IMG/VR virus record: IMGVR_UViG_3300031857_000579
Span: 1 to 37,332 of that record
DNA: 37,332 nt
Source: a virus
Strand: one strand, 5' to 3'
The notes under the pieces were generated by a model. It was given only the letters and a program-made list of their open reading frames with translations, had not been told where the DNA came from and did not search any database. How positions within the stretch are numbered: the first letter of the stretch is position 1; the number at the start of each line of letters is the position of its first letter. This document shows positions 3,602-7,563 of this stretch, piece after piece. The translations under genes and the position numbers were made by a program.

Positions 3602-4896
3602 GCGATCACGCCAAGCTGTCCCCCTCGAAGCGCAACCGCTGGGCCTTGTGCCCTGGTAGCATTCGAGAGGAGGCCAAGTACCCTGAGCAAGAAAGCGGTG
3701 AAGCCGCTGTTGACGGGACACACAGCCACACGTTGCTTGAGACTTGCATCAAAAGTGGCATGGACGCTGCCTTATACGTTGGTCAAAGTCTTTTTGACCA
3801 CGAAGGGCAGTTTAAGGTTGACGCCGACCGCGCCAAGCGCGTGCAGATTGCACTTGACTACATTGCCAAACGAGTAAAAGAAGAAGGCACGCCTTTCTTT
3901 ATCGCTAAGGTAATTAGCGAAACCCGTGTTGACCCTGCGCACTTGCTTGGCCGTGACGATTTGTCCGGCACAGTGGACGTTCAGATTCAGTGTTATGACA
4001 TCTTGGAACTGATCGACTATAAAGATGGTATGGGTGTCGTTAGCGCTGAAGGTAACTTGCAGCTTGAGCAGTACGCTTACGGTGTGCTGGCAGGCTACAA
4101 GCTGCCCGTTAACGGCCCCTATCCTTTCAAAACAGTTCGCATGACAATCATCCAGCCTAAGCTGGCACTGCGCGGCATGAATCCAATCACATCTCATGAT
4201 GTGGCTGTAAGCGATCTGTTGGCTAACATGGGTACAATCATCACGCAAGCTGCCGCAACTGACAAACCAGATGCACCGCTTGTACCGGGTGAAAGTCAAT
4301 GTAAATTTTGCCGCGCTAAGGGATCATGCTCCGCGCTGGCAAGTAACGTAATGAAGGAGGTAGGAATCATGTTCCAGCCAGTAGTAAGTCAAACACTCGA
4401 TGTCGCGCAGCAAAGCGCTGACAAAGATCCATCCACGATGGACGATGCCCAGATCCGTCAGATCATGGAAGCCGCTCCCCTGATGCGCCAACTCCTCGAA
4501 GGTGTGGAGAAGGAAGCCCTGCGCCGCTTGGAAGCTGGTCAAACCATTGCCGGCCTCAAACTGGTTAATGGCCGTGGCTCCCGTGCTTGGGCATTACCCG
4601 AAGAAGAGATGGCCGAGAAGCTCGTGAAGATGGGCATCCCTAAAAGCGCGATCTATGAAACCAAACTCGTCACCCCTGCTAAGGCTGAGAAGCTGACGTG
4701 GGACAAGAAAGACGGCACAAAGGTTCAGCTTACCGACAGACAGCTTGCCCGTATGGAGCAGGAATATGTCGTCAAGATTGCTGGCAAACTGACTGTCGTT
4801 CCCGAATCTGATAGCCGCCAGGCTGTCATAACAAATGCTGCGCCGCTGTTTAGCGCAGTTGAAACCCCCGCCGAGCTTCCAGCTTGGCTTTCGTAA
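3598..4896 (+). CDS. DUF2800 Cas4/RecB-like PD-(D/E)XK nuclease
   Basis: A 432-residue protein with the features of phage DUF2800, a Cas4/AddB-related nuclease family. An N-terminal Cys (C18 in WALCPGS) and a C-terminal trio (C235, C238, C244 in CKFCRAKGSC) match the four-Cys 4Fe-4S set. The nuclease core shows DGTHSH (39-44), D127 in GTVDVQ, and D140-Y-K142 in LIDYKDG as the D...(D/E)XK residues, with QLEQYAYG (155-162) as the following helix. About 180 residues follow the cluster, rich in Lys and Glu and of unknown role. It probably trims DNA ends during recombination or replication. It overlaps the upstream gene by 4 bases. Confidence 0.8.
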   Translation: MSDHAKLSPSKRNRWALCPGSIREEAKYPEQESGEAAVDGTHSHTLLETCIKSGMDAALYVGQSLFDHEGQFKVDADRAKRVQIALDYIAKRVKEEGTPFFIAKVISETRVDPAHLLGRDDLSGTVDVQIQCYDILELIDYKDGMGVVSAEGNLQLEQYAYGVLAGYKLPVNGPYPFKTVRMTIIQPKLALRGMNPITSHDVAVSDLLANMGTIITQAAATDKPDAPLVPGESQCKFCRAKGSCSALASNVMKEVGIMFQPVVSQTLDVAQQSADKDPSTMDDAQIRQIMEAAPLMRQLLEGVEKEALRRLEAGQTIAGLKLVNGRGSRAWALPEEEMAEKLVKMGIPKSAIYETKLVTPAKAEKLTWDKKDGTKVQLTDRQLARMEQEYVVKIAGKLTVVPESDSRQAVITNAAPLFSAVETPAELPAWLS

Positions 4897-4914: not shown

Positions 4915-5595
4915 ATGTCCGAAGTTATCTTTTTATCAAATGTTCGTTTGTCTTTTCCTCATCTTGCTGAACCCCAGCGACAGGTCAATGAGGCTACTGG
5001 TAAGGAGCGCATCTCCTACAACTGTGAGTTCCTGATGCCTCAGGATCACGCAGGCTTCCAGCAGTTCATGGCTCGCTACGGTGCGATGGCATTGGAGAAG
5101 TGGAAAGAGCACGCCCAGACTGTCATGGGCATGATCCAGCAAGATCGCAAGCTGCGTTGCTTTGGCATGGGTAGCGAGAAGGTCAACAAAAAGACTTTCC
5201 AGCCCTATGACGGCTACGCTGGCAACGTGTTTATCACTGCTGGCCGTGACTCTGCACCGCAGATGATCCAAGCCGATGGCTCACCTGTTGATCCTGCCAA
5301 CACAATGGCATTTCAGCAGTTGGCACGCAAACTGTACGGTGGCTGCCGAGTCAACGCCGCCGTCAAACCCTGGTTGCAAGAGAACAAGCATGGCCGTGGC
5401 ATCCGCTGCGACTTAATCGCTGTTCAATTTGCTGGTGACGATACTGCATTCGGTGAAGGAGCCGTTGATGCGTCTAATTTATTCGGCGCGGTTACGACTG
5501 CTCCGGCTGGAATGTTTGGCTCTGCGCCTCAAGGTGCGCCTGCGATGCCTGGTGCGCCGTTTCAAGGCTTACCTTCGTTCCTAGGCGGTCAATAA
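4915..5595 (+). CDS. DUF2815 protein, likely single-stranded DNA-binding
   Basis: A 226-residue protein whose N-terminus (FLSNVRLSFPHLAEP followed by a short polar stretch and CEFLMP) is characteristic of DUF2815, a family encoded in phage replication modules next to DUF2800 and thought to be OB-fold, SSB-like. The C-terminus is low-complexity, rich in Gly, Ala and Pro with repeated GAP, like the flexible tail of an SSB, though it lacks the usual acidic tip. The ATG at 4915 follows GGAGTAAATGTA, a leader closely like those at 9439 and 5707. Position between the Cas4-like nuclease and PolB supports a DNA-binding role at the fork. Confidence 0.75.
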   Translation: MSEVIFLSNVRLSFPHLAEPQRQVNEATGKERISYNCEFLMPQDHAGFQQFMARYGAMALEKWKEHAQTVMGMIQQDRKLRCFGMGSEKVNKKTFQPYDGYAGNVFITAGRDSAPQMIQADGSPVDPANTMAFQQLARKLYGGCRVNAAVKPWLQENKHGRGIRCDLIAVQFAGDDTAFGEGAVDASNLFGAVTTAPAGMFGSAPQGAPAMPGAPFQGLPSFLGGQ

Positions 5596-5600
5596 AAATC

Positions 5601-5688
5601 GGGGGCTGTTAAGCCAGCATTCGAGGATGTTTCTGTAGGGATTTTCTGGCTTTCTCCCCTACCTAGACGAAACCAAATCGAAGCCCCC
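5601..5688 (+). ncRNA. Candidate structured RNA leader of the DNA polymerase gene
   Basis: An 88-base element fills most of the gap between the DUF2815 and polymerase genes. An outer stem pairs GGGGGCT (5601-5607) with AGCCCCC (5682-5688). Inside it AAGCCAG (5611-5617) pairs with CTGGCTT (5646-5652), and GTAGGG (5635-5640) pairs with CCCTAC (5657-5662). The two inner stems interleave, so they form a pseudoknot or are mutually exclusive alternatives. No T-run follows, so it is not a standard terminator. I do not recognise it as a known riboswitch class. The role, possibly translational control of PolB, is inference. Confidence 0.45.
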
Positions 5689-5706
5689 ACCAACTTGGTA
5701 ATTGTA

Positions 5707-7563
5707 ATGAGTAATGATTATGTGTATGACATCGAAACCTACCCCAACGTCTTCACGCTGGCGGTGGAGCATACAGATGCGCCGCTATGCTGGTCTTTTG
5801 AGATCAGCGACCAACGTAACGATTCCAAAGAGATCATCGAGTTTCTCCAGTATCTCAAGGATACGAACGCACGCATGGTCGGGTACAACAACCTGGGGTT
5901 CGACTATCCCGTCCTGCATACGCTGATCCGCATGGGCAAGTCAGATGCCCGAACCCTATACGACAAGGCCATGGCCATCATTAACTCGCAAGATGACGAT
6001 GAAGGTGGCAAGTGGATGCACCAGGTCAACCCGACTGACCGTTTTGTCGAGCAGATCGATCTGTTCAAGATCCACCATTTTGACAACAAGGCACGGGCTA
6101 CCAGCCTCAAGATGCTTGAGTTCAATATGCGCTCGGATACCATCGAGGATCTGCCGTTCCCCGTGGGCACGGCGCTGGGTAAAGAACAGATCGTGACCCT
6201 CAAGAAGTACAACGCCAAGGACGTGCGGGAAACCAAAGCGTTCTATCACAAATCGCTGGACATGATCCGGTTCCGCGAGGAGCTGACGGCCAAGTACAAC
6301 CGTGACTTCATGAATCACAACGACACCAAGATTGGCAAAGATTACTTTGTCATGAAGCTGGAAGAGGCCGGTGTCGCCTGCTATGACTTTAGCTCCAAGG
6401 GACGCACACCCCGCCAGACCCCACGCCCATCGATTGCGCTCAAAGACGCCATCCTGCCGTGGATCCAGTTTGAATCGCCCGAGTTCAACCGTGTGCTTAA
6501 CTGGCTAAAAGAGCAGACAATCACGGAAACGAAGGGGGTGTTCAATGATCTCATCGCTCGCGTTCATGGCTTCGATTTTGTGTTTGGCCTTGGCGGCATT
6601 CATGGATCCATTGAGTCGGAAGTGGTCGAATCGGATGCTGATCACGTCATTGTTGATCTGGACGTTACCTCCTATTATCCAAATCTTGCTATCACTAACG
6701 GATTTCATCCTGCCCATCTTGGCAAGGAATTCGTAAGCATTTACAAGCACCTGTTTGAGCAGCGCAAAACGTACCCCAAGAAGTCAGCCGAGTCAGCGAT
6801 GCTGAAGTTGGCGCTGAACGGTGTGTATGGCGACAGCAACAGCCGCTTCAGCGTCTTTTATGACCCACTGTTCACTATGTCCATTACGCTCAACGGCCAG
6901 CTTCTGCTGTGCCTGCTGGCTGAAGGACTGATGCACATCGAAGGACTTCGCTTGATCCAGGTAAACACGGACGGTCTGACAGTGCGTGTGCCCAGGCAGA
7001 ACAAGTGGCTGGTGGATCTGGCCCGTGCAGCTTGGCAGCTCCGCACCGGCTTGAACCTTGAAGAAGCCATCTACAAGACCATGATGATCCGTGACGTAAA
7101 CAACTACATCGCTCAGTACGAGGATGGGAACGTCAAGCGCAAGGGTGCGTATGAGTGGAGTGCTTTATGGCATCAAAACGCCGGCGGCCTGGTGATCCCC
7201 AAGGTGGCTGAAAAGGTTTTGATCGAGGGTGCACCGATCCGCGAGACGCTGCAAAACTGGCCAGACATCATGGACTTCATGCTTCGCACCAAAGTGCCAC
7301 GGTCTAGCCATCTAGCCATTGAGCGTGACGGCGTGACCTCACAACTGCAAAACATCACACGCTATTACATCGCTGAGGGCGGTGGACGACTGTTCAAGTG
7401 GATGCCTCCGCTTGCCAAGAATCCTGGCCAGTGGCGAAAGATTGGCGTTGAAGCTGGCTGGGGTGTCCAGCCTTGCAATGACATCAAGGATGCTGGCAAG
7501 TTGCCAGTGGATTTTGACTATTACATTCAAGAGGTGGAAAAACTCTGCCTCGGATTAGCATGA
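5707..7563 (+). CDS. Family B DNA polymerase with 3'-5' exonuclease
   Basis: The replicative polymerase, 618 residues from the chosen ATG at 5707. An in-frame ATG at 5695 exists, but 5707 follows the GGTAATTGTA leader shared with neighbouring genes. The exonuclease domain shows Exo I DIET near residue 6, Exo II NNLGFDYPVL and Exo III YNAKDVRE. The polymerase domain shows motif A DVTSYYPNLAI from 319, motif B KLALNGVYGDSNS from 367, and motif C as NTDG (420-423). In motif C the usual first Asp of DTD is Asn; the second, catalytic-type Asp is D422. The protein is short for PolB. No terminal protein is seen, so protein priming cannot be assumed; the prim-pol primase is the likely partner. Confidence 0.88.
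   Translation: MSNDYVYDIETYPNVFTLAVEHTDAPLCWSFEISDQRNDSKEIIEFLQYLKDTNARMVGYNNLGFDYPVLHTLIRMGKSDARTLYDKAMAIINSQDDDEGGKWMHQVNPTDRFVEQIDLFKIHHFDNKARATSLKMLEFNMRSDTIEDLPFPVGTALGKEQIVTLKKYNAKDVRETKAFYHKSLDMIRFREELTAKYNRDFMNHNDTKIGKDYFVMKLEEAGVACYDFSSKGRTPRQTPRPSIALKDAILPWIQFESPEFNRVLNWLKEQTITETKGVFNDLIARVHGFDFVFGLGGIHGSIESEVVESDADHVIVDLDVTSYYPNLAITNGFHPAHLGKEFVSIYKHLFEQRKTYPKKSAESAMLKLALNGVYGDSNSRFSVFYDPLFTMSITLNGQLLLCLLAEGLMHIEGLRLIQVNTDGLTVRVPRQNKWLVDLARAAWQLRTGLNLEEAIYKTMMIRDVNNYIAQYEDGNVKRKGAYEWSALWHQNAGGLVIPKVAEKVLIEGAPIRETLQNWPDIMDFMLRTKVPRSSHLAIERDGVTSQLQNITRYYIAEGGGRLFKWMPPLAKNPGQWRKIGVEAGWGVQPCNDIKDAGKLPVDFDYYIQEVEKLCLGLA

Follow-up and report, generated by a model that had tools for sequence, protein, structure and literature searches.

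The window, i.e., the whole 37,332-nt stretch of viral DNA analyzed here, carries between its genes for a single-stranded DNA-binding protein (ssb) and a family-B DNA polymerase (PolB) one copy of a folded RNA element, here termed type A, whose helices covary in its relatives; the observation is genuine and far beyond chance. Many freshwater phages carry this covarying RNA family, its pseudoknot included, where ssb meets the polymerase gene, and Rfam lacks it except for a possible distant cousin, Atu_At1. Type A forms a large, apparently undescribed family of ~95-nt folded RNAs in water-borne phages, many of them from freshwater, and the alignments show a stack of helices P1-P2-P3-P4 in which the P4 loop pairs back to the strand joining P1 and P2 to give a compact pseudoknot (Table 1).

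Table 1. Parts of the type A element in the window and the genes flanking it.
Feature	Position	Strand	Remarks
Upstream gene: Gp2.5-like / Enc34-type ssDNA-binding protein (ssb)	4915–5595	+	phrog_112, PF10991
P1 outer stem, 5' arm GGGGGCU	5601–5607	+	7 bp with 5682–5688
Pseudoknot 5' arm AAGCCAG	5611–5617	+	7 bp with CTGGCTT 5646–5652
P2 5' arm UCGA	5621–5624	+	Pairs with 5678–5681; double changes at 3 of 4 pairs in relatives
GGAU of the GGAUG motif	5625–5628	+	Near-invariant; internal loop
P3 5' arm	5629–5634	+	P3a 5629–5631/5671–5673; P3b probably 5632–5634/5665–5667
P4 5' arm GUAGGG	5635–5640	+	6 bp with 5657–5662
P4 loop AUUUU-CUGGCUU-UCUC	5641–5656	+	Pseudoknot 3' arm, 5646–5652
P4 3' arm CCCUAC	5657–5662	+	
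P3 3' arm	5665–5673	+	Some relatives have an extra hairpin between P4 and P3
P2 3' arm UCGA	5678–5681	+	
P1 outer stem, 3' arm AGCCCCC	5682–5688	+	U-run next in many relatives, not in the window
Downstream gene: family-B DNA polymerase (PolB)	5708–7563	+	phrog_1252; likely start ATG 5708

The element begins 5 nt past the ssb stop codon (5593–5595) and stops 19 nt before the PolB ATG, which we took as the likely start, the ORF tool having placed it at TTG 5695. The interleaving of the pseudoknot stem with P4 can be read directly from the window. The folding energy of the window element is unremarkable (MFE -26.7, z -0.83; 38 of 200 shuffles equally good), and for this reason the window alone would not prove the structure; the comparison with relatives does.

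A first search pattern, built from the loop and with the pseudoknot letters fixed, was run on IMG/VR and gave at least 120 stretches; at least 113 of the first 120 were type A members (110 by regular expression and three more by the covariance model R1), and seven were excluded as chance or unclear. Alignment A1 comprised 77 rows picked by eye from 104 distinct sequences to thin near-duplicates. Its 34 pairs (P1, P2, P3, P4, and pseudoknot) were formed in 89.8% of 2599 cells, compared to 31–48% in slid controls, and both sides had changed in 468 cells against a shuffled mean of 145. Double changes were present at all 10 positions of P1 and all seven modelled pairs of P4; P3a was strong and P3b weaker, with 72% of cells paired. 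Since the first pattern had fixed the pseudoknot letters, a second pattern with these letters free was used (at least 120 stretches). R1, a covariance model without the pseudoknot, was run on 27 new loci among them, 21 of which were members, and it aligned 29 relatives from this pattern (A2). All seven pseudoknot pairs were formed in every A2 row (196 cells), with compensatory changes in six of the seven pairs and 34 double-change cells, compared to 7.7 in shuffled and 0–3 in slid controls; variant arms include AATCCAA:TTGGATT (L226), AAGCCGC:GCGGCTT (L211), and AGGCAGA:TCTGCCT (L203). In the same rows in which the pseudoknot is thus paired in 100% of cells, P4 is paired in 92.4%, so that the two interleaved, covarying helices coexist as a true pseudoknot rather than as alternatives, and mutually exclusive inner stems, one of the two options in the preliminary description, are not supported.

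The outer 7-bp stem and the inner 7- and 6-bp stems of that description are borne out at the positions given for them, all three covarying in relatives, and compensatory changes, whose lack it had named as grounds for rejecting the structure, are present in every helix. It was also right in seeing no coding explanation, as no conserved ORF crosses the element: of the six frames, the best is open in 45 of the 77 relatives and none in all of them.

Around the covarying helices, the type A letters GUUAA, GGAUG, UUUU..UUUC, and CCAAAU are near-invariant. GGATG is present in 111 of 112 distinct elements, most of which were fetched with this motif in the pattern, and all 19 loci newly fetched without it (L380–L398) still have it. 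Among 24 phage records chosen by hand as 17 known carriers and seven others, type A has exactly one copy in each of the 17 and none in the seven. A search of 84,980 cellular species genomes gave three matches, all on MAG contigs, and the arrangement in one of them (L272) is phage-like. In the named phages of INPHARED (50,697 records, blastn), no type A was found, the type A query giving short chance matches only, and the window leader matched solely the PolB gene of phage DSL-LC05. Nearly all relatives are environmental contigs known from sequence alone, and our literature search found no description of a type A element.

In their genomes, 85 of 128 elements sit between co-directional genes, with median distances of 5 nt from the stop of the gene before and 15 nt to the start of the gene after (approximate values, from simple mechanical ORF calling). 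Downstream neighbors are diverse, including PolB, PolA, 5'-3' exonuclease, terminase small and large subunits, and ParB-methyltransferase. Upstream, three families hold 53 of the 69 distinct proteins of at least 100 amino acids whose stop lies within 60 nt of the element. The first is the Gp2.5-like SSB (11 distinct proteins); the second has an N-terminal OB fold (23 proteins; AlphaFold pLDDT 66.7; VIA Z 8–9 to RPA/SsbB/PriB); and the third (19 proteins; pLDDT 76.0) gives weak matches mostly to SSBs (Foldseek E 0.03–0.3) and VIA Z scores of 7.4 to the phiC31 RDF and 5.0 to the gp32 core. The three families are mutually unrelated in sequence, and the Foldseek matches of the second and third are weak (best E 0.03). 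The common upstream neighbor is therefore probably an ssDNA-binding or OB-fold protein, which for these two families we infer from weak or partial fold matches. The "PolB leader" of the preliminary description is only partly right; the element goes chiefly with the 3' end of the gene before it, and what follows it varies.

Across all contexts, at least five U directly follow P1 in only 27 of 117 elements. A sigma70-like promoter (score at least 8) abuts the element in 11.6% of cases, compared to a 3.1% background, which in this minority suggests a free RNA. In L088 and L183, a TTTACT-18-TATAAT-like promoter ends 5 nt ahead of P1, and L148 has a weaker one; in these phages the RNA may start at P1. 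Some members lie elsewhere, before or between terminase genes behind another hairpin, and one faces a convergent gene (L157). This other hairpin, X, stands immediately 5' of type A in 22 of the 125 distinct upstream stretches (CCAACACGCAT-8bp-loop-8bp-AGCCGTGTTGG; among others in L083, L093, L100, L112, L114, L134, L154, L165, L177, and L198), whose 3' arm overlaps the 5' arm of P1, so that the two outer stems compete. In L154, a Betaproteobacteria-1 RNA (RF02932, 91.3 bits; 4146–4263, minus strand) lies downstream of type A, which suggests an array of noncoding RNAs in that phage.

In the lineage of the window, the ssb-polB slot was compared in 80 IMG/VR loci with PolB homologs (L001–L080), using motif classes defined here (modules B–E, and X). 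The slot holds type A in eight, B in 23, C/D in 23, a plain hairpin in five (GGGGGC-UUCG/UACG-GCCCCC), E in one, and other contents in 18 (including two more E and many with an inserted gene), two slots being too short. Nearly all of these modules are closed by a shared GGGG...CCCC base. Two phages that are 94.8% identical over 3.4 kb carry different modules, namely B (L011) and type A (L012). The SSB was found in 75 of the 80 loci. Where a gene separates ssb from polB (16 loci), the module stands directly behind the ssb stop in 12 (type A in L076; B, C, or E in most others) and before polB in four (L021, L055, L058, and L080), indicating that it goes mainly with the ssb end. Homing endonuclease is one putative identity for the inserted genes. 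The slot also holds a tRNA in L028; in L072 (~4493–4590) a B-like hairpin is nested in the loop of a type C module, and in L036 (~4401–4500) a tRNA T-arm-like stretch lies inside type C. Module E (GATGTGCTTGCAT..GCAAGTTAAATGAGGAGCTG..; ~95 nt, with a G-rich/C-rich closing stem) was seen in L033, L051, L053, L074, and L075, with no Rfam match in L033 or L075. In the window, no U-run follows P1 and no terminator-like site, and hence no intrinsic terminator, was found; the U-run is likewise absent from the plain-hairpin sisters, which makes full intrinsic termination unlikely in this lineage.

The second upstream family, that with the OB fold, offers the key comparison. Among 80 relatives fetched, with membership decided by R1, type A is present in 56 (one cut by the contig end). 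Of the 24 others, 22 carry a plain intrinsic terminator directly after the same stop codon; in one of the remaining two (L471) a terminator is visible but the contig ends, and the other (L469) has neither. The terminator parse had left 12 "neither" rows, among which L450–452, L466, L470, and L475 are R1 members, and had wrongly assigned L463 to the terminators. At least five U lie within 5 nt of P1 in 32 of the 39 parsed type A copies of this lineage. The plain terminator of L444 reads GTGAGAGC...GCTCTCAC-U9 (in full GTGAGAGCC-GTAAAA-AGCTCTCAC-U9), and L418 reads GTGAGAGCT-(type A)-GGCTCTTAC-U6. The two stems are nearly the same, so that P1 stands where the sister phages have their terminator stem, with the pseudoknot domain as its loop. 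The exceptions are four loci (L419, L420, L422, and L423) in which a plain terminator precedes type A rather than being replaced by it, and five (L421, L433, L435, L476, and L477) in which an ORF intervenes.

We propose, with confidence evenly divided for and against, that type A acts in cis, punctuating the 3' end of ssb in a replication operon, with the pseudoknot filling the P1 loop. In this model, the hairpin immediately past the ssb stop, whether a terminator or a 3'-end structure, would have P1 as its stem. Once closed, the knot would cap the ssb mRNA, protect it, and end a fraction of the transcripts there, and the ssDNA-binding protein would thereby be produced in surplus relative to the polymerase or exonuclease of the following gene. 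In favor of this model are the covariation of every helix, the position close behind the upstream stop, the three ssb-like upstream families, the plain terminators at the same place in sister phages, the exchange of modules on a common base, and the inserted genes that mostly leave the module next to ssb. In the window, where P1 is not followed by a U-run, full termination is less likely than protection, pausing, or a leaky stop. The near-invariant core argues for a role of the domain beyond closing a stem; its letters probably serve as a binding site or build a tertiary core, which we conjecture could set how often P1 closes, and the likeliest extra role of the domain is the binding of a protein or a small molecule. 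Against cis punctuation, a mere terminator would not need so conserved a core, and the U-run is missing from the window and from most elements overall. The four loci with a terminator before type A, the members at terminase genes or facing a convergent gene, and the minority that abut promoters also speak against it, as does the dependence of two of the three ssDNA-binding assignments on weak or partial fold matches. A more specific version, which we put forward tentatively and hold to be possible if rather doubtful, is a sensor pseudoknot in the loop of an ssb terminator, which would sense the SSB or a replication-linked signal and meter read-through into the polymerase or exonuclease, being one of several unrelated RNA cassettes exchanged at that stem. 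If true, a sensor pseudoknot in a terminator loop would be a new class of phage regulatory RNA. Because sister phages carry a plain terminator, another module, or the knot at the same place, the SSB:polymerase balance is directly testable.

The element may instead be a trans-acting small RNA, derived from the 3'-UTR of the operon mRNA or transcribed from its own promoter and directed at a host or phage target, which we consider somewhat improbable. The nearest known family, Atu_At1, is reported as a discrete transcript (PMC3738593), and this real Agrobacterium RNA keeps the trans-acting reading alive; the single copy in each of the 17 carrier records and in the window, as well as the promoters abutting P1 in a few loci (L088 and L183), agree with it. 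However, the kinship with Atu_At1 is no more than suggestive, the majority of copies are operon-internal with no promoter at P1, and a consistent linkage to ssb would be unexpected for a free RNA. No more probable in our estimate is a ligand- or protein-sensing switch (a riboswitch or gp32-like SSB autoregulation) controlling downstream read-through or translation. Near-invariant loop letters around covarying helices, the flanking by ssb and polymerase, and a domain nested in a terminator stem, which is a natural switch layout, all fit such a switch, and in T4, gp32 binds an mRNA pseudoknot and gp43 an mRNA hairpin (PMC3014915). On the other hand, the neighbors vary, with no ligand-linked gene set or common metabolite pathway, the near-invariant core is unchanged across three sequence-unrelated upstream protein families, and no alternative pairing was found inside the window element. 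The knot also lies behind ssb and not in the ssb leader, where a gp32-like autoregulatory operator would be placed.

The exchange of modules raises the further reading, which we regard as unlikely, of a mobile or exchangeable RNA cassette that confers no advantage itself, tolerating hairpin loops and swapped by recombination at the GC-rich stem. That one and the same slot accommodates different modules, a tRNA (L028), a nested module (L072), and inserted genes, and that near-identical phages differ in their module, would be expected of such a cassette, but the single copy in each of the 17 records, the strong purifying selection on the core, and its repeated placement behind ssb-like genes are not. 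A signal for stop-codon read-through or frameshifting that fuses SSB and polymerase has next to no probability. The window does have an open frame running from the ssb stop, which shares the PolB frame, through to PolB (5593–5707), but 44 of 58 elements contain an in-frame stop, and the fusion frame is present in two of 45; with the open joining frame not conserved in relatives, this signal is refuted for the family. A self-cleaving ribozyme is improbable as well, with no Rfam ribozyme match and with the RACE ends reported for Atu_At1 spanning the whole element (PMC3738593).

Type A invites comparison with three known systems. Type A resembles an intrinsic terminator in that P1 is followed by a U-run in many members and plain terminators stand at the same place in sister phages; it differs in that its loop is a covarying pseudoknot domain of ~75 nt and that the U-run is absent from the window and most members in other contexts. 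The T4 gene 32 pseudoknot and gene 43 operator are likewise RNA structures that a phage carries at its ssb and polymerase genes (PMC3014915). Each of these operators precedes the gene it controls, in the leader, whereas type A lies behind ssb, is larger, and has no known protein binding; the T4 regulation of ssb and polymerase by mRNA structure (PMC3014915) serves as an analogy and does not imply kinship.

The third system is Atu_At1 (RF02496). No family in Rfam 15 matches the window at its gathering score, and the matches at E ≤10 are confined to Atu_At1 and, by chance, tsr25. The Atu_At1 match is full-length and was obtained with lax filters (17.9 bits, E 1.1; gathering score 60), none being seen in the window at default filters. 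In the reciprocal search, R1 weakly found two of six Atu_At1 loci (16.1 bits, E 0.049; 13.8 bits, E 0.2), so that the alignments are full-length in both directions but low-scoring. At default filters, RF02496 matches the type A place in two of the 17 type A records; seven of 14 control genomes match too (E ≤10). An Atu_At1-type loop pattern gave 98 stretches in IMG/VR, with no members by R1 (E ≤1) among the 80 loci tested, and four weak Atu_At1-like places on rhizobial plasmids had no pseudoknot recognizable by eye. Atu_At1 differs from type A in residing on rhizobial replicons and not in phage operons; Rfam draws a local hairpin where we read a pseudoknot arm, and this arm is invariant in the six copies read. 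The two appear to share the outer stem, GGAUG, UUUU and UUC around the loop arm, and the extra hairpin between P4 and P3, and in the Atu_At1 consensus and six plasmid copies the upstream strand can pair with the P4 loop (AACCGG:CCGGUU). Table 4 of Lee et al. (2013, PMC3738593) lists Atu_At1 as the Agrobacterium/Rhizobiales small RNA pAT_55271R, a discrete transcript of 118 nt (~140 by Northern blotting) mapped by 5'/3' RACE, with RPKM values of 45 in log phase, 866 in stationary phase, and 3597 in AB medium; it is the same place as the RF02496 match in L274. These resemblances are suggestive, and we regard common descent as likely, by which the orphan Atu_At1 RNA would gain possible relatives.
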